Assembly (NCBI GenBank): GCA_017848795.1
Contig: JAFIHG010000019.1
Coordinates: 1 to 64,000 of the forward strand
Source of the DNA: Candidatus Nanopelagicales bacterium
GTDB taxonomy: Bacteria > Actinomycetota > Actinomycetes > S36-B12 > CAIYMF01
DNA length: 64,000 nt
Direction: 5' to 3'
Below the pieces are notes generated by a model. The model saw nothing but the letters and a program-made list of their open reading frames with translations. It ran no database searches and was not told the origin of the DNA. The translations under genes were made by a program, and so were the position numbers. This document shows, in pieces, positions 3,019-54,712 of the stretch; position 1 is the first letter of the stretch, and each line of letters opens with the position of its first letter.

Positions 3019-3846
3019 ATGGAAGCCATCCCGCTCACCGCCGTGCTCCCGGAGGCCCTCGATCCGAAGGTCTTCAAGGTCCACTTCGCTGTCTGGAACG
3101 GGGAGCAGCACCCGATTGATGTGCTTGCGACCGACCAGGAGGAGTGGCGGGGGTGGAACTCCTGGCGCAGCGTGAAGGACGACTTCAATCGAGCGTTCAT
3201 CTTCTCGCTCGCTCAGACCAAGGACGACGCCACGCTCTGGCTCTTCGGCGGGATCTGGGAGGTCCTGGAGCGGAGACCCGTACCCCAGGCAGACTCGTAC
3301 ACGGTCAAGTTGCGCGAAGACCTGATGGGGCCGTTCGTTCGCCGTCTCTATGTCCGTCACAGGCGCTCGGGTAGGAACATCCGGCGCACCATGGAGTCGG
3401 TCCTGCCGACGATGACTGTCTCTTCGGTTCTTGAGGAACCGTTCGTAGGTCACCCGTTCCCCGGTCACGATCGGATAAACCACAGCCTCGCCGACCTTCA
3501 AGTGGTTGTCGCTCAGTCTCGGGCGGACTGGCGTATCGCCCTGGAGAGTATGAAGGGCGTCTATGTCATTCATGACAGAGAAACTGGGCAGCGCTATGTC
3601 GGCTCAGCGTACGGTGACACCGGCATCTGGCAACGCTGGACGACATACGCCAGGACGTTGCACGGCGAGAACGTCGGTCTGAAAGAGCTTGTCGAGGCGA
3701 AGGGTGAGGAGTACTACCGCAGCAATATGCGGTTCGCGCTTCTGGAGTACTGGTCGATGCGAACAGATGATGATCATGTGCTCAAGCGTGAGTCGTACTG
3801 GAAGGACGTGCTTCACGCTCGTTCACTAGGCCACAACAGGAACTGA
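3019..3846 (+). CDS. GIY-YIG nuclease family protein
   Basis: The 275-residue product has a C-terminal GIY-YIG domain. KGVYVIHD (G180-V-Y182) and RYVGSAYG (Y193-V-G195) are the two namesake strands, R206 (GIWQRWTTY) and E258 (LKRESYWKDVL) are the expected catalytic Arg and metal-binding Glu, and it ends in HNRN. The N-terminal half (HFAVWNGEQHPIDVL, NSWRSVKDDFNRAFIFSLAQ, TLWLFGGIWEVLER) is an associated domain of unknown role, found in stand-alone bacterial members of this type. The gene sits alone between two direct repeats in a toxin-antitoxin region, which suggests a mobile or defence-related gene. Nuclease activity is likely; target is unknown. Confidence 0.85.
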   Translation: MEAIPLTAVLPEALDPKVFKVHFAVWNGEQHPIDVLATDQEEWRGWNSWRSVKDDFNRAFIFSLAQTKDDATLWLFGGIWEVLERRPVPQADSYTVKLREDLMGPFVRRLYVRHRRSGRNIRRTMESVLPTMTVSSVLEEPFVGHPFPGHDRINHSLADLQVVVAQSRADWRIALESMKGVYVIHDRETGQRYVGSAYGDTGIWQRWTTYARTLHGENVGLKELVEAKGEEYYRSNMRFALLEYWSMRTDDDHVLKRESYWKDVLHARSLGHNRN

Positions 3847-4976: not shown

Positions 4977-5106
4977 ACCGAGTACTCGCCCGGTCTTTCA
5001 CGCGTCGACGGGCGCGCCACCAGGCCCAAAGTGTCTCGACTGCGCTCGACCACCGAGTACGCGCCCGGCCTTTCACGCGCCGACGGGCGCCACCGCGCTC
5101 AAAGTG
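4959..5106 (+). repeat. Tandem direct repeat, two units of about 75 bp
   Basis: Units 4959-5033 and 5034-5106 share TCTCGACTGCGCTCGACC, CACCGAGTAC, CTTTCACGCG and CAAAGTG in the same order and spacing. A third, more diverged unit runs from 5175 to about 5254. Confidence 0.85.
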
Positions 5107-39784: not shown

Positions 39785-40429
39785 GTGGGACTGCTCGGCT
39801 TCCGGCGTACCCGCGCGGGCCGGATCGTCGCCCGGCTGCAGGAGCGGGAGCGCACCGCGTTGCGGGGACTGCTGAACGACCTGATCGAGCTGGTGGCCCC
39901 GCCCGACGGCGAGGCGGACGCCGACCCGCTCGCCCGGCTGGTGGGCATCGACCCGCACGCCCGTACGCCCGACGACCCGGCACTCGCCCGCCTGCTCCCG
40001 GACGGATACGGCGAGGAGGAGCCGGAGGCCGCCGCCGATTTCCGGCGCTTCACCGAGCGCGCGCTCCGCGAGGGCAAGGTCGCGGGCGCCCGCACCGTCC
40101 TCGAGTCGCTGGAGCGTTCGGGGGCGAAGGTCGTGCTCTCGGCGGGCGAGGCGCAGGCCTGGCTGGGCACGCTCAACGACCTGCGGCTCACGCTTGGAAT
40201 CCGGCTGGAGGTCGACGAGGACCCGCACGTGATGGACGAGCGGATCTCCTTGCTCGGGCGGCTCGTCGTGGACTGGGACCCCGCCGCGACCGACTCCGAC
40301 GAGGCGGCGCAACGGGCCCGTGCGGCGATGGAGACGCTCGCGGCGTACCAGCTCTACGACTGGCTCACCTTCCTGCAGGGCACCCTCATCGAGGCCATCA
40401 CCGGGACTGCCGACCCCACCGAGGACTGA
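39785..40429 (+). CDS. DUF2017 family protein, ClpS-associated
   Basis: The 214-residue product starts at a GTG one base after the clpS stop, so the two are coupled. It shows the DUF2017 layout: ERERTALRGLLNDLIELVAP, DPALARLLPDGYGEEEPEAA, DFRRFTERALREGKVAGART, WLGTLNDLRLTLGIRLEVDE and YDWLTFLQGTLIEAI. The family occurs next to clpS in actinobacteria but has no known biochemical role; participation in Clp proteolysis is inferred from linkage. Confidence 0.93.
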   Translation: MGLLGFRRTRAGRIVARLQERERTALRGLLNDLIELVAPPDGEADADPLARLVGIDPHARTPDDPALARLLPDGYGEEEPEAAADFRRFTERALREGKVAGARTVLESLERSGAKVVLSAGEAQAWLGTLNDLRLTLGIRLEVDEDPHVMDERISLLGRLVVDWDPAATDSDEAAQRARAAMETLAAYQLYDWLTFLQGTLIEAITGTADPTED

Positions 40430-40513
40430 CCCGCGCTCCACTTCTCGGGATCGCCGCGGGGCCCGGCGTGGTTGCATGACCCCGCGGGGTCGGAGCGGCG
40501 GAGAGGTCCGGCG

Positions 40514-41734
40514 GTGACCAGCGAGACGCGGCCGTACCCGCACCGCCGCACGGTGGGGCACGGGCTGCGCGCGTGGTACGGCCGAGGCCCGCGCCGGCAC
40601 GGCGAACCGATCGCGGGCCGCACCGTCAGCTACGTCGAGCTGTTCTACGACCTGGTGTTCGTCGTGCTGGTCGGTCAGGCGGCGGGCGCGCTCGCGGCCC
40701 AGCCCGGATGGCGCGGTGCCGCCGAGTTCGCCACCGTCTTCGGCCTGGTGTGGATCGCCTGGATCAACGGCACGCTGTACCACGAGCTGCACGGCCGGGA
40801 GGACGGGCGCAGCCGCACCTACATCTTCGCCCAGATGTGCGTGCTCGCCGTTCTCGCGGTCTTCACCGGGCACGCAGGAAACGCGGACGGCCGGCAGTTC
40901 GCGCTCACCTACGCCGTGCTGCTCGTCCTGCTGTGGTGGCAGTGGTACGAGGTGCGGCGCCGCGACCACGTGCAGAACCGCAGCCTCTCGACCCCGTACT
41001 TGGCCGGGCTGCTCGTCACCATCGTCGTCATGCTCGCCACGAGCGGTTTGCCCGAAGCGCCGCGGCTCGCCGCCTGGGCGGCGGTCGTGCTCGGCTGGGT
41101 GGTGCTCGGCTCGGCCAGCGTGCTGTCGCGTGCGCCGGGGCGTTCGTACTTCCAGGCGACCGGTTCGCTGGTCGAGCGGCTCGCGCTGTTCGTGATCATC
41201 GTGCTCGGCGAGACGGTCGTCGGCGTCGTCGGCGGGGTCACCGAGACGGCCGCCGACCCGCTCACGCTGCTGACCGCAGTGCTCGGCCTCGGTGTCGGGT
41301 TCGGGCTGTGGTGGACCCTGTTCGACGTCGTGGGCGTACGCGAGCCGCGGCCCGCGCGGACCCGGCTCATGGCGTGGTTGTTCTGCCACCTGCCGCTCAG
41401 TGGCACGCTCGCCGCCGCGGGAGCGGCGATGGTCGGGCTCGTCGCCCATGCCCATGCGCCGCGTACGCCGCCGCCGGTGGCCTGGACCCTCGGTGGCGCG
41501 GTCGCGCTCGGACTGGTGCTCGTCGCCGCCCTGTCCGCGACCGTCGTACGCGACCCGGAGGAGCTGCCCAGCAGCCGGCTCGCGCTCGTCCTCGGGACCG
41601 GCGCGTGCGCCGTCCTCGCGGTCGCGGCGTTCACCCCACCGGCCTGGCTGCTCGCGCTCGTCGTGCTCGCGGTGCTGAGCGGTACCTGGCTCACGACGTT
41701 CGTGCCGCGCCCCCTCCCGCCGGACGCCGCCTGA
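40514..41734 (+). CDS. Low temperature requirement protein A (LtrA) family membrane protein
   Basis: The 406-residue product starts at the GTG at 40514 with GAGAGG upstream. It is a multi-pass membrane protein with the LtrA motif VSYVELFYDLVFVVLVGQAA and later LVERLALFVIIVLGETVVGV, with at least ten hydrophobic segments. LtrA was found in Listeria as needed for growth in the cold; its activity is unknown. It has no obvious operon partner. Confidence 0.9.
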   Translation: MTSETRPYPHRRTVGHGLRAWYGRGPRRHGEPIAGRTVSYVELFYDLVFVVLVGQAAGALAAQPGWRGAAEFATVFGLVWIAWINGTLYHELHGREDGRSRTYIFAQMCVLAVLAVFTGHAGNADGRQFALTYAVLLVLLWWQWYEVRRRDHVQNRSLSTPYLAGLLVTIVVMLATSGLPEAPRLAAWAAVVLGWVVLGSASVLSRAPGRSYFQATGSLVERLALFVIIVLGETVVGVVGGVTETAADPLTLLTAVLGLGVGFGLWWTLFDVVGVREPRPARTRLMAWLFCHLPLSGTLAAAGAAMVGLVAHAHAPRTPPPVAWTLGGAVALGLVLVAALSATVVRDPEELPSSRLALVLGTGACAVLAVAAFTPPAWLLALVVLAVLSGTWLTTFVPRPLPPDAA

Positions 41735-41831
41735 GCGCTCGCCGACCCGGTCGCGCGCGGCCCGCTGTGCTGCCGGAGCGGCGTCAGGGGTAGCGGGCAC
41801 AGTTGGCGCGCGACGAGCGACGGGAGACTCC

Positions 41832-44670
41832 ATGGATACTCGGGCGGTGCCTTCGAGCGTCGTCCCTGCGCAGGTCGAGCAGGAGCCGAGCGCGGGGTCG
41901 GCGCCGTACGCGGAGCTGGTGCGCCACCCGGTCGTGTTCGAGCCGGGCGATCCGCCGCGCGCCGGCCGGATGCGGTTCTGGGCGCTCGACGCGGGGACGC
42001 TCCCGGACGGCGGTCGCGGCAGCGCGATCGTCGCCGTGGCGCACGGCCGCGGCGCGCGTGGCCGTCCGGCGACGACCGTCGACCTGCCGGTGGGCGCGGC
42101 CCTGCCCCACCTGGTGCGTGCGCGCCACAACCCGGCAGCGCACCCCGCGGCGCGCTTCTGGGGCGCAGCCGCCTGGACCGCCCTCACCCTGGTCGCCGGC
42201 GGCCGGCTGGCGCCGTCCGTGTCGGGCGAGGGCTACGCCGCCTGGCGGGCGGGCCCGCTCGCCCTGCGTGACCTCGACCGGTTGCGTGAGCTCGCCGCCG
42301 CCATGCCACCGCAGGCCCGGGCGTTGCCAGTGGCGGGGAGTGCGCCGCTGCTGCTCCCGGACGCCGACGTGCTGCTCCGGGCCTTCCTCGACGCGGTCGC
42401 CGACGAGCTGCCCCGCAGCGCGCGCACCGCGGACCTCGGAGCCGATGCGGGTTACCTGCAACGCGAAGCCGCGCCCGGTCACCGACCTGCGGGCGTGAGC
42501 ACAGGAGACGACCGCCGCCTCCGACGGCGCCCTGCAGATCTCGCTGCGGCTGGAGGTGGGCGTCTCGGAGGAGGACCGCGCCGAGCCGGTGTTCGCCGGG
42601 GTGCTGCAGGTCGCCTCCACGACCGACCCGACGCTGCTCGTCGACGCCGGCGAGCTCTGGACCGGTGGCGGGCGGCAGCTCGGCCCGCGTGCGCGGATCC
42701 ACACGATGATCGCCGCGCGCCACGCCGCCCGGGTGTGGGCGCCGCTGACGCGGCTGCTGGACGGGGCCGCTCCCGACCGCGTCCTGCTCACCGACCCCGA
42801 GGTCGAGGAGCTGCTCGAGTCCGGGATGTCGCGCCTCGCCGCCGCGGGCGTCGCCGTGCACTGGCCCAAGGACCTGGCGAACGCGCTGACCGCCCGCGCG
42901 GTCGTGCGTGCCACCACTGCCCGGCCGCCCTCGGACCTGCGTTCGCGACTGGACACCGATGGGCTGCTGAGCTTCGAGTGGCAGGTCGCGGTAGGCGACG
43001 AGGCGTTGACGGAGGAGGAGCTCGAAGAGCTCGTCGCGGCGCGGCGCCCGGTCGTACGGCTGCGCGACAAGTGGCTGCTCGTCGACCCGGAGGTCGTACG
43101 CCGTGCCCGCACCCGGCGCATCGCGCCGCTCACCCCGGTGGCGGCGCTGGCGCTCGCCCTGACCGGCAGCGCCGAGGTCGACGACGAGCCGGTCGAGGTG
43201 GCGCCGCTGGGCTGGCTCGCCGAGCTGCGGGAGCGGATCCGCTCACCCGACGACGGCGCGGAGGCGGTCGGCGCGCCGCCGGGGCTGGCCGCGACCTTGC
43301 GCCCGTACCAGCTGCGGGGGCTGCGCTGGCTGCACCGGATGACCTCGCTCGGGCTCGGCGCGTGCCTCGCCGACGACATGGGGCTGGGCAAGACCGTCAC
43401 GCTGATCGCGTTGCACCTGCACCGCCAGCGCGACCCGGCCACCGCCGGACCGGCCCTGGTGGTGTGCCCTGCGTCGCTGCTCGGGAACTGGGAGCGCGAG
43501 ATCACCCGGTTCGCTCCCGGCGTGCCGGTACGGCGCTATCACGGCACGCGCCGCGAGCTCGACCTCACCGAAGGCTTCCTGCTCACCACGTACGGCACGA
43601 TGCGTCGCGACGCGTCGCGCCTCGGCGCGCTCCCGTGGTCCCTGGTCGTCGCCGACGAGGCGCAACACGTCAAGAACCCATTGTCGGGTACCGCGAAAGC
43701 CTTGCGGCGCATCGGTTCCGCCGCGCGCGTCGCGCTGACCGGGACGCCGGTGGAGAACAACCTCTCCGAGCTCTGGGCGATCCTCGACTGGACCACACCG
43801 GGGCTGCTCGGCACGCTGCCGGCGTTCCGGGCGCGCTTCGGGCGCGCGGCCGAGAGCGGCGACACCGACGCCGCGCGCCGGCTCGCGGCGCTCGTCGGGC
43901 CGTTCCTGCTGCGCCGGCGCAAGTCCGATCCGGGGATCGCGCCCGAGCTGCCCGCCAAGACCGAGACCGACCAGGTGGCCGCGCTGACCACGGAGCAGGC
44001 GGCGATCTACGAGGCGGTGGTGCGCGAGATCATGACGGCGATCCGGGCGTCCGACGGCATCGACCGGCGCGGGCTGGTGCTCAAGCTGCTGACCGCGCTG
44101 CGCCAGGTGTGCAACCACCCCGCGCAGTACCTGCGGGAGCCGGGCACCCGGCTGGCGGGACGATCGGGGAAGCTCGAGCTGCTCGCGACGATCCTCGCCG
44201 AGGACGGTTCCGCGCTCGTCTTCACCCAGTACGTCGCCATGGCGCGGCTGCTCGAGCGCCACCTCGCGATGCGCGGCGTGCCCACGCTGCTGCTGCACGG
44301 CGGCACCCCGGTCGCCCGGCGCGAGCAGCTCGTCGCTGCGTTCCAGGCCGGGCAGGCACCGGTGTTCCTGCTGTCGCTGAAGGCGGCCGGCACCGGACTG
44401 AACCTCACCCGGGCCGACCATGTGATCCACTACGACCGCTGGTGGAACCCCGCGGTCGAGGACCAGGCGACCGACCGGGCGTACCGCATCGGGCAGACCC
44501 GGCCGGTGCAGGTCCACCGGCTCGTCACGGAGGGCACCGTGGAGGAGAAGGTGGCCGCGCTGCTCGCCGACAAGCGTGCGCTCGCCGAGGCGGTCCTGGG
44601 CAGCGGTGAGGCGGCGTTCACCGAGCTCGACGACCGTGCGCTGAGCGAGCTCGTCGCGCTGCGCCGCTGA
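41832..44670 (+). pseudogene. SNF2-family helicase gene broken by a frameshift and an in-frame TGA
   Basis: From the ATG at 41832 the frame encodes a normal actinobacterial SNF2 N-terminus (AELVRHPVVFEPGDPPRAGR, MRFWALDAGTLPD). The rest lies in the +1 frame: LQISLRLEVGVSEEDRAEPV, then the ATPase with ATLRPYQLRGLRWLHRMTSL, GLGACLADDMGLGKT, VADEAQHVKN, LTGTPVENN, FTQYVAMARLLERHL and QATDRAYRIGQTRPVQVHRL. The shift falls before about 42470. The second frame also meets a TGA at 42496-42498, where an Ala-x-Ala-Gln context suggests a former Trp. A second start at the GTG 42556 could give a stand-alone helicase core of 704 residues. Confidence 0.75.
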
Positions 44671-44673
44671 CCG

Positions 44674-45951
44674 ATGAGCGCCGCTCGCGACGAGGCCGCC
44701 GGCTTCCCGCCGTTCCCGCCCGGCCGCCGCACCCGCAAGGGCCTGTCCTGGTGGACGCTCGCCTGGATCGACGCGATGGAGCATGCCGCGCTCGAGCCGA
44801 ACCGGCTGGCGCGCGGCCGTACGTACGCGAACACCGGCCGGGTGGGGCCGATCGCCGTCGCGCCCGGGCTGGTCAGCGCGCCCGTGCAGGGCACCCGGGC
44901 CAGCCCGTACCGCACCCGGCTGCACCTGCAGACGCTGACCGACGGGCCGTGGGACGCGTTCCTTGACGCGGCCGCCTCGAGCGCCGCGCGGCTCGCCGCC
45001 CTGCTCGACGGCGAGATGCCCCACGACCTGGTGACGGCAGCCGCGGACGCGGGCGTACCGCTGCTGCCCGGCCCCGGCGACCTCGACCCCGAGTGCAGCT
45101 GTCCGGACTGGGGTCATCCGTGCAAGCACGCCGCCGCGCTCAGCTACCAGGCCGGATGGCTGTTGGACGCGGAGCCGTTCGTGCTGCTGCTGATGCGCGG
45201 GCGGGGCGAGTCGCGGCTGCGCTCCGAGCTCGCCGCCCGCAATGCCGCTCACGCCGGTGCCGCCCATGCCGGTGCCGCGCCTGCCGTGGGTCCGGGGACC
45301 GGTGTGCCGGCGCGCGAGGCGTTCCGCGCACGGGTCGGTGAACTGCCCGCGGACCCCGACCTGCCGCGGGAGCCGGTACGGCTGGCGCTGCCACCGGCAG
45401 CGGGGGTGGACGTCGAGCTGCTGGCCGCCGCGGCGGGCGACGCCGCCGCCGTGGCACGTGACCTGCTGTCCGGCAGGGCCCTGGACGACCGGGCCGCCCT
45501 GGTCCGGTTCGCCGCCGGCCTGCCGCCCGGCCTGCGGCGTCGGCTGGCCGCCCGGCACCCGGCCGCGGACCTGCCGCGCGCGATCGCCGCCTGGGAGTGG
45601 GGCGGGCCCGGCGCGCTGCAGGTCCTCGACCAGCCGTGGACCCCGCCCGGCGCGGACCTGGCGCGCGCCCGCATCGCCGTCGAGCAGGCGTGGGCCGGTG
45701 ACGAGCTGCCCGCCATCACCCGGTGGCGCAACCGCTGGACACTGACCACCGGCACGTCCCGGCTCCAGCTGCGGTACGGCCGCGACGCCCGCTGGTACCC
45801 GTACCGGGACATGGCCGGCACCTGGTGGCCGGCCGGATTCCCGGACGCCGACCCGGTCACCGTCCTGATCGCCCTGCTCACCGACCCGCCAGCTGCTGAC
45901 CCACCGCCCGCCGGCCCGCCGGGCACACCTTCAGCGGAACACCCCCTCTAG
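44674..45951 (+). CDS. SWIM zinc-finger domain protein
   Basis: The 425-residue product starts three bases after the helicase stop. The SWIM motif CxCx6CxH is present: C141 and C143 in ECSCPDWGHPCKH, C150, H152. The N-terminus (WTLAWIDAMEHAALEPNRLARG, RTYANTGRVGPI) is typical of the actinobacterial SWIM protein encoded with an SNF2 helicase. The C-terminal half is alanine-rich and repetitive. The pair is thought to act together on nucleic acid, but no function is established. Its partner gene appears damaged here. Confidence 0.92.
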   Translation: MSAARDEAAGFPPFPPGRRTRKGLSWWTLAWIDAMEHAALEPNRLARGRTYANTGRVGPIAVAPGLVSAPVQGTRASPYRTRLHLQTLTDGPWDAFLDAAASSAARLAALLDGEMPHDLVTAAADAGVPLLPGPGDLDPECSCPDWGHPCKHAAALSYQAGWLLDAEPFVLLLMRGRGESRLRSELAARNAAHAGAAHAGAAPAVGPGTGVPAREAFRARVGELPADPDLPREPVRLALPPAAGVDVELLAAAAGDAAAVARDLLSGRALDDRAALVRFAAGLPPGLRRRLAARHPAADLPRAIAAWEWGGPGALQVLDQPWTPPGADLARARIAVEQAWAGDELPAITRWRNRWTLTTGTSRLQLRYGRDARWYPYRDMAGTWWPAGFPDADPVTVLIALLTDPPAADPPPAGPPGTPSAEHPL

Positions 45952-45960
45952 GGTCGAGAC

Positions 45961-46389
45961 GTGCTGACGATCACCCAGGAACTCGTCGACGCGATGGTCG
46001 CCCACGCGCGGGCGGACCACCCGGACGAGGCGTGCGGCATCATCGCCGGGCCCGAGGGCAGCGACCGGCCGACCCGGTTCGTGCCGATGGTCAACGCGGC
46101 GCGGTCCCCGACGTTCTACGAGTTCGACTCGATGGACCTGCTGCGGCTCTACCGCGAGCTCGACGAACGCGGTGAAGTGCCCGTCGTCGTGTACCACTCC
46201 CACACCGCCACCGAGGCGTACCCCTCGCGCACCGACGTCGACCTCGCCTCCGAGCCGGGCGCCCACTACGTGCTGATCTCGACCCGGCAGACGGGCCCCG
46301 CGGACGGACCGTACGAGCTGCGCTCCTACCGGATCGTCGAGGGCGAGGTCACCGAGGAACCGGTCCAGATCGTGGAGTCGTACGCCTGA
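45961..46389 (+). CDS. mec: Mec-type JAMM metallopeptidase for CysO-cysteine
   Basis: The 142-residue product starts at a GTG at 45961. It is a Mov34/MPN (JAMM) metallopeptidase: E23 (HPDEACGIIAGPEGSDRP), then H79-x-H81 and D92 (VYHSHTATEAYPSRTDVD), the zinc ligands. In mycobacteria Mec cleaves cysteine from the C-terminus of the sulfur carrier CysO. The sequence is close to that group. cysO and cysM follow downstream, with a CPBP protease gene between. It completes the CysO-dependent cysteine pathway. Confidence 0.92.
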   Translation: MLTITQELVDAMVAHARADHPDEACGIIAGPEGSDRPTRFVPMVNAARSPTFYEFDSMDLLRLYRELDERGEVPVVVYHSHTATEAYPSRTDVDLASEPGAHYVLISTRQTGPADGPYELRSYRIVEGEVTEEPVQIVESYA

Positions 46390-53064: not shown

Positions 53065-54712
53065 GTGGTTGTGCGTCGTACCCCTTCCGGGTCTGCCGGC
53101 GTGCTGGTCGCGGGAACGTCGATGGTCATGATGGTGGGGTTGCTCGCAGCCCCGCCCGCGACAGCGGCACCAGCGAAGAAGGCGTTGACCGATCGCGTCA
53201 GTGTGCGGACCGGTGGGTTCGAAGGGCATGCGGTGGTGAACAGCGGCGGACAATCCGGGAACGAGCGCCGTCTGCTCAGTGCCAACGGCCGCTTCTCGGT
53301 GTTCGAGTCAGCCTCGGAACTGATCGGGAAGAACAACCTCACCTCGTGGGGCGTCTACGTCCGGGACCGCAAACTCGGCACGACGACGCGAGTGAGCGTC
53401 TCCAGTTCGGGGAAGGCCGCTAACGCGAACAGTGGCAGCCCGTCCATCAGCGCCAACGGTCGGTACATCTCGTTCTCGTCTGCGGCGAGCAACCTGGTTC
53501 CCGGTGACACCAATGGCACCTCGGACGTCTTCGTGCACGACCGCAAGACGCGGACGACGAGCCGGGTGAGCGTGGACAGCGCTGGGAAACAGCACGGCGC
53601 CGCCTACCGCAGTGGCACCGCATCGCTCAGCCCGAACGGACGGTTCGTGACCTTCCAGAGCGACGCACCCGGTCTGGCGCCCGGGACCGGGAAGGCTTGC
53701 AGGCGTATCTTCACGACCGGAACACCGGCACGACAGAACTGGTGAGCCTGGACAACGCCGGAGTCGGTGCGTCGGTGGTGGTCGGCGAGACCGTCTCGAC
53801 CGACGATGCGGGACGGTACGTCGTCTTCACCTCGCTGGATTCCGGTATCGCCCCGGGGACGAACAACCTCAACCCCGACACGTCGTGGTGCGCGACCGTG
53901 TGAACAGGACGACGACTCAGGTCAGCCGGATGCACTATCGCGCCTACAACCCGACGATCAGCGCCAACGGCCAGTTCATTGCCTTCAGCTACAACAACAA
54001 GTGGGATGGGCTGAACTCCCCTAACCCGGTACTCGCCGGCGAAACGGTTCTCGCCGAGGATGTGTATCTCTACGAGACCGCGACCGGGAAGATCACACGC
54101 GTCAGCGTCGGCAACGGTCGCGTTGCCGGGAACAGCGACAGCTACCACCCATCTCTGAGCGCCGATGGTCGCTACGTGGTCTTCAGCTCAGCAGCCACCA
54201 ACTTGGTGAGTGGTGACACCAACAACAAGGTCGACGTGTTCCGCCACGACCGCCTCACCGGCCAGACGATCCGGGTCAGCGTGACGTCCTCTGGTGCGCA
54301 GATTCCCGAAGGGGCCCGGTCCGGATCGATCAGCGGCGACGGCAATCACGTCCAGTTCGACAGCTACGGCAGCACCATCACCAGCCATTCCGTGGGTGCT
54401 GGCACGCGCAACACCTTCGTACGGGACCTGGCAGGCACGTACCAGCCGATGCGCGCCAAGGTCGTGAAGCTTGCGAAGAAGGCGAAGGCGAAGCGCTCGT
54501 ACACGATCAAGACCGCGGGAATCGGCGCCAAGGAGAGCCTGACCGTTCGCTGGAAGCCGGTCGGGAAGACCAAGGGCAAGGTCATCAAGCGCAGTCTGCC
54601 GGTCAAGGCGAACAAGGTACGGATGAAGGCGCCGGTCCGGCTCGGCAAGTACCGCGTCACCGTCACGTACGCAGGGGTGGCCCAGCGGGCCGCTGGCGTG
54701 CGCGTCCGGTGA
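53065..54712 (+). pseudogene. Secreted TolB-like beta-propeller protein gene with two frameshifts
   Basis: A GTG at 53065 with GGAGGAAC upstream starts a signal peptide ending in PATAAPAKK, then repeated WD40/TolB-like strands (SPSISANGRYISFSSAASNL, VPGDTNGTSDVFVHDRKTRT). At about 53690 the repeat continues one base back (LQAYLHDRNTGTTELVSLDN, DAGRYVVFTSLDSGIAPGTN). At about 53880 it shifts again (VVRDRVNRTTTQVS, NPTISANGQFIAFSYNN) and reads through to 54712. Both shifts are -1. The end is a Lys-rich beta domain (AKVVKLAKKAKAKRSYTIKT). The rejoined protein would have about 549 residues. Decay or sequence error would look the same. Confidence 0.75.

Follow-up and report, generated by a model that had tools for sequence, protein, structure and literature searches.

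A probably inactivated SNF2 ATPase gene beside an open SWIM zinc-finger gene in a Candidatus Nanopelagicales genome

We analyzed a 64,000-nucleotide stretch of DNA from a Candidatus Nanopelagicales bacterium (hereafter the window; contig C49, one of 57 in a draft genome of 3.45 Mb that is 98% complete), and found on its + strand, at positions 41832-44670, a gene with three sequence defects that are absent from the relatives measured. This locus is probably a recently inactivated SNF2 ATPase gene of the SCO1167/SCO6262 family; we infer the loss of function and the presence of the defects in the organism itself, not just in its assembly. A previous sequence-only reading had left the choice between a dying gene and one that has become two proteins. 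The first option fits best because of the three defects in one gene, the failure to find a further, intact family member in this genome, and the one-frame homologues found nearly everywhere examined, whereas the second fared poorly in the comparisons described below.

Two reading frames in the SNF2 gene

Frame 0, which begins at the ATG at 41832, is open as far as a stop at 44607-44609 (925 aa), and frame 1, read over 41803-44670, contains exactly two stops, at 42496 and 44668. The N-terminal part of the gene lies in frame 0 (41832-42471, + strand; coding signal at 41857-42471) and matches positions 3-186 of the curated model NF058637 ("SCO1167/SCO6262 family helicase"), whereas the DUF3670 and SNF2 helicase core lies in frame 1 (42499-44670, + strand; PF12419, PF00176 and PF00271) and matches positions 223-932. 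As the two halves match adjacent segments of one curated model, the split is more than a chance arrangement, and the earlier statement that N-terminal domain and core are in different frames is borne out. The domain order of the model (N-terminal part, DUF3670, SNF2, Helicase_C) is thus present, but over two frames, and neither piece alone reaches the cut-off of 1200 bits (1173.5 for the core, 165.4 for the N-terminal part).

To place the change of frame we used the homologue comparison across the junction that had been proposed with that reading. In alignments with the homologues, N-terminal similarity usually stops around residue 196 of frame 0 (about 42420), and the similarity of frame 1 resumes just before the TGA at 42496; codon statistics point to frame 0 as far as 42471 and to frame 1 beginning at 42500. 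Taken together, these results place the change from frame 0 to frame 1 on the + strand within 42421-42475; judged by homology the change is real, and it is assigned to this interval, not to a single base within it. The TGA itself (42496-42498, frame 1, + strand), correctly described before as lying just ahead of the core, falls in a column that is Trp in 80/80 homologues, as had been anticipated. Past the junction, the N-terminal frame continues for about 700 out-of-register codons, to 44609.

Both frames are open and in the right order, and programmed frameshifting could join them: ribosomes that changed to frame 1 beyond 42498 would bypass the TGA, since frame 0 is open there. We consider this explanation highly improbable, given that the relatives use a single frame, that homology puts the frame change before the TGA, and that no recoding signal was noticed on a by-eye reading of the sequence.

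Gene order and comparison with relatives

Genes for a DUF2017 protein (39785-40429) and an LtrA protein (40472-41734) precede the broken locus on the + strand, and a SWIM zinc-finger gene (44674-45951) and a JAB protein gene (45961-46389) follow it, also on the + strand, so that the helicase-SWIM pair has the SNF2 gene first and the SWIM gene second. The SWIM gene is open, matches PF04434 with 26.1 bits against a cut-off of 19.6, and shows no unusual deviation from its homologues in a comparison with 80 loci, in agreement with the earlier description of this partner as intact. Blastp found a SWIM homologue at 80/80 named helicase loci, with the projected start at most 200 bases away in 73 of them; a strict pattern detected it at only 45 of the 80.

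A contaminant origin of the contig was rejected, as the cysteine synthase encoded on it is 81-89% identical in 9 of 12 other genomes of the organism's family, making the contig look native; of the other three, G006 has a 41% match, and G001 and G003 have none at the threshold used. The distance from the DUF2017 gene to the cysteine synthase gene is 7.2 kb here, compared with about 0.9-1.2 kb in seven g2 genomes and about 2 kb in two g4 genomes, so that genus g1 has the helicase pair in addition at this site. In G001, the only genome of the same genus compared, the helicase gene directly follows the same DUF2017 gene, without the LtrA gene that stands between them in the window. That helicase gene, within which the G001 contig ends at base 5021, runs in a single frame across the junction and has Trp at the TGA column. 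Its DNA is about 61% identical to that of the window, and the junction alignment is one base shorter in G001.

The 80 homologues, the best of a larger number of core matches, come from named genomes, mostly Streptomyces, and are 61-69% identical to the core found here. The gene in the window shares with the SCO1167/SCO6262 family the domain order, the catalytic motifs and the adjoining SWIM gene, and differs from it in its two frames with a TGA and in a core that is four residues short. In 79 of these homologues, N-terminal part and core are read in a single open frame. The exception, L039 from Streptomyces sp. or43, is likewise interrupted upstream of the core, but at another place and by an in-frame stop, within an apparent short inserted stretch (3301-3800 of that locus).

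Broader searches gave a similar picture. At the level of the order, 7 of 166 genomes had a match with E <= 1e-100, the window's own among them, and the other six matches were 42-47% identical. In the class-wide search, 87 of 394 genomes gave 111 matches, counting the window itself; of the other 110, 107 fall in open frames 875 aa or longer, a measure of frame length and not of individual N-terminal parts. A split common to the relatives was rejected, since the short frames in this search (G179, G465 and G357) all run into contig ends. In a phylum-wide draw, 16 of 396 genomes had matches, 24 in all. Within the organism's own genome, the next-best match to the helicase was only 36% identical over 131 residues, and the genome search for another intact family member found none.

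To judge from its family, the SNF2 motor of the relatives uses ATP to move along double-stranded DNA. The closest solved motor by sequence is the Sulfolobus SNF2/Rad54 helicase (PDB 1z63; E 6.7e-118), whose match covers only the motor (query 241-701). Membership in a defense system was rejected, as PADLOC matches to Zorya and Dpd span just the shared motor, and the curated NCBIfam scores were 265.6 against 1500 for ZorD and 48.5 against 500 for DpdE. In Streptomyces coelicolor, sco6262-6263 (putative helicase; hypothetical protein) are listed as sigma-E targets (PMC6767563). No functional study of the SNF2-SWIM helicase pair was found in the literature searched.

A deletion in the helicase core

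Alignments with the homologues and with 1z63 point to a third defect beyond the frame change and TGA noticed before, an in-frame loss of 4 residues (12 nt) between SGKL and LVFTQ (44164-44208, + strand), which is new in this analysis. The spacer between these motifs has 13 residues here and 17 in 80/80 homologues, 79 of them counted by pattern and one, L041, in which SGKI replaces SGKL, by eye; 1z63 retains the four residues, and all 8 of 8 distant loci have four more residues than the window at or beside this spacer. In five homologues inspected, the DNA of the spacer encodes an ELLDEL-type repeat, making slippage a natural cause of the 12-nt loss.

The motifs DDMGLGKT, DEAQ, TGTP and RIGQT, which we take to be the catalytic motifs of the helicase, are all intact, and the core deviates from its homologues at 13 of 288 near-invariant columns, through 10 substitutions and 3 positions of the 4-residue gap. 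As the Marinitenerispora homologue L065 deviates at 12 such columns, these counts do not demonstrate a general decay of the core. The 4-residue loss could be tolerated. Translation from the GTG at 42556 would give a core of 704 aa; the earlier claim that this second start yields a complete core therefore holds as to its openness but not as to its integrity, with four residues missing.

Retention of this core as a separate 704-residue protein from GTG 42556, alone or alongside a second product made from the N-terminal part, would agree with a frame that is open over 2.1 kb, with the intact motifs and with the open SWIM partner. A further point in its favor comes from G835 (L202), a genome of another class of the phylum, whose 59%-identical core lies in an 852-aa open frame, and in which a profile built from the 80 homologues did not detect the N-terminal domain in the 7.5 kb examined. 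The same profile found the domain in 6 of 10 other loci (L162, L158, L163, the window's own L006, L189 and L190) and was silent in L188, L007, L008 and L116, so its silence in G835 is weak evidence (L187 repeats the G835 locus in shorter form). Another gene sits immediately upstream of the G835 core in a different frame, and the open frame ahead of the core overlaps a reading frame that resembles a membrane protein. The G835 core starts near the same domain border as the core in the window, with no detectable N-terminal domain; G835 is a possible natural core-only member, indicating that a core without this domain can exist.

On the other hand, G835 keeps the 17-residue spacer and has an SDR-like gene downstream of the core, where no SWIM gene was seen. 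In the window, frame 0 is open to 44609, so that no termination takes place beside the GTG start, a GGAG directly abuts this codon without Shine-Dalgarno spacing, and the core is short by four near-universal residues, which every relative measured retains. Two working proteins were therefore rejected as the likeliest reading, and a separately retained core is, in our estimate, improbable. Its specific form, in which the helicase, minus its N-terminal domain and with its second lobe shortened, survives as a 704-residue motor, is started inside an overlapping out-of-frame frame and works with the SWIM protein, is somewhat more doubtful still.

Possible assembly error and probable inactivation of the gene

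The main rival to a dead gene is a consensus or assembly error, according to which the organism carries an undamaged gene and sequencing or assembly brought in the shift and the TGA. The genome is a draft in many contigs, and spurious pseudogenes arising from such errors have been documented (PMC11017572). We scanned 446,986 bases of the genome for frame jumps and then read those flagged by eye; a version of the scan without a gap between segments missed the SNF2 break. Three other frame-broken loci emerged, and the remaining flagged jumps are taken as ordinary gene boundaries, by-eye judgements that were not all retranslated. A beta-propeller (PD40) gene in the window (53173-54703) has two frame jumps, near 53690-53710 and near 53878. 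On contig C2, the type I restriction methylase gene hsdM (L157, 6154-7859) falls into two frames, with the break at its conserved NPPF motif, and an alpha/beta hydrolase gene beside it (L157, 4955-6137, minus strand) has an in-frame TAA and a frame that differs from the upstream coding signal.

These three loci, among them hsdM with 1 nt missing from a conserved motif, leave room for an assembly-wide source of error. However, decay accounts more easily than any single type of sequencing error for a gene that combines a length change, a substitution and a 12-nt in-frame loss, no homopolymer longer than 3 occurs in 42421-42500, and all four broken loci appear non-essential, which suits real pseudogenes, though four is few. 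We thus regard an error of sequencing or assembly as possible but unlikely, and inactivation of the gene as the probable explanation, while recognizing that the intact motifs, the unexceptional other deviations, the core-only homologue in G835 and the three other broken loci weigh against it.

If the gene is inactivated, the damage may be outlined as follows. Working relatives carry the N-terminal domain, DUF3670 and the SNF2 motor in one protein, with which, to judge from gene adjacency, the SWIM protein probably acts. A small length change at 42421-42475 would have put translation out of register, such that ribosomes starting at 41832 would produce about 200 normal residues and then run on through about 700 wrong ones, ending at 44609, and the TGA at 42496 and the slippage-type loss of 12 nt in the core would represent further damage. 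As the out-of-register product would end 64 bases before the SWIM start, translation of the SWIM gene need not suffer.

In itself, a disrupted accessory gene from a draft genome has little significance. The locus nevertheless calls for caution on two counts, as G+C-rich DNA can let a frame-shifted remnant stay open for 900 codons, and a seemingly complete core may hide an in-frame loss that is visible by alignment alone.
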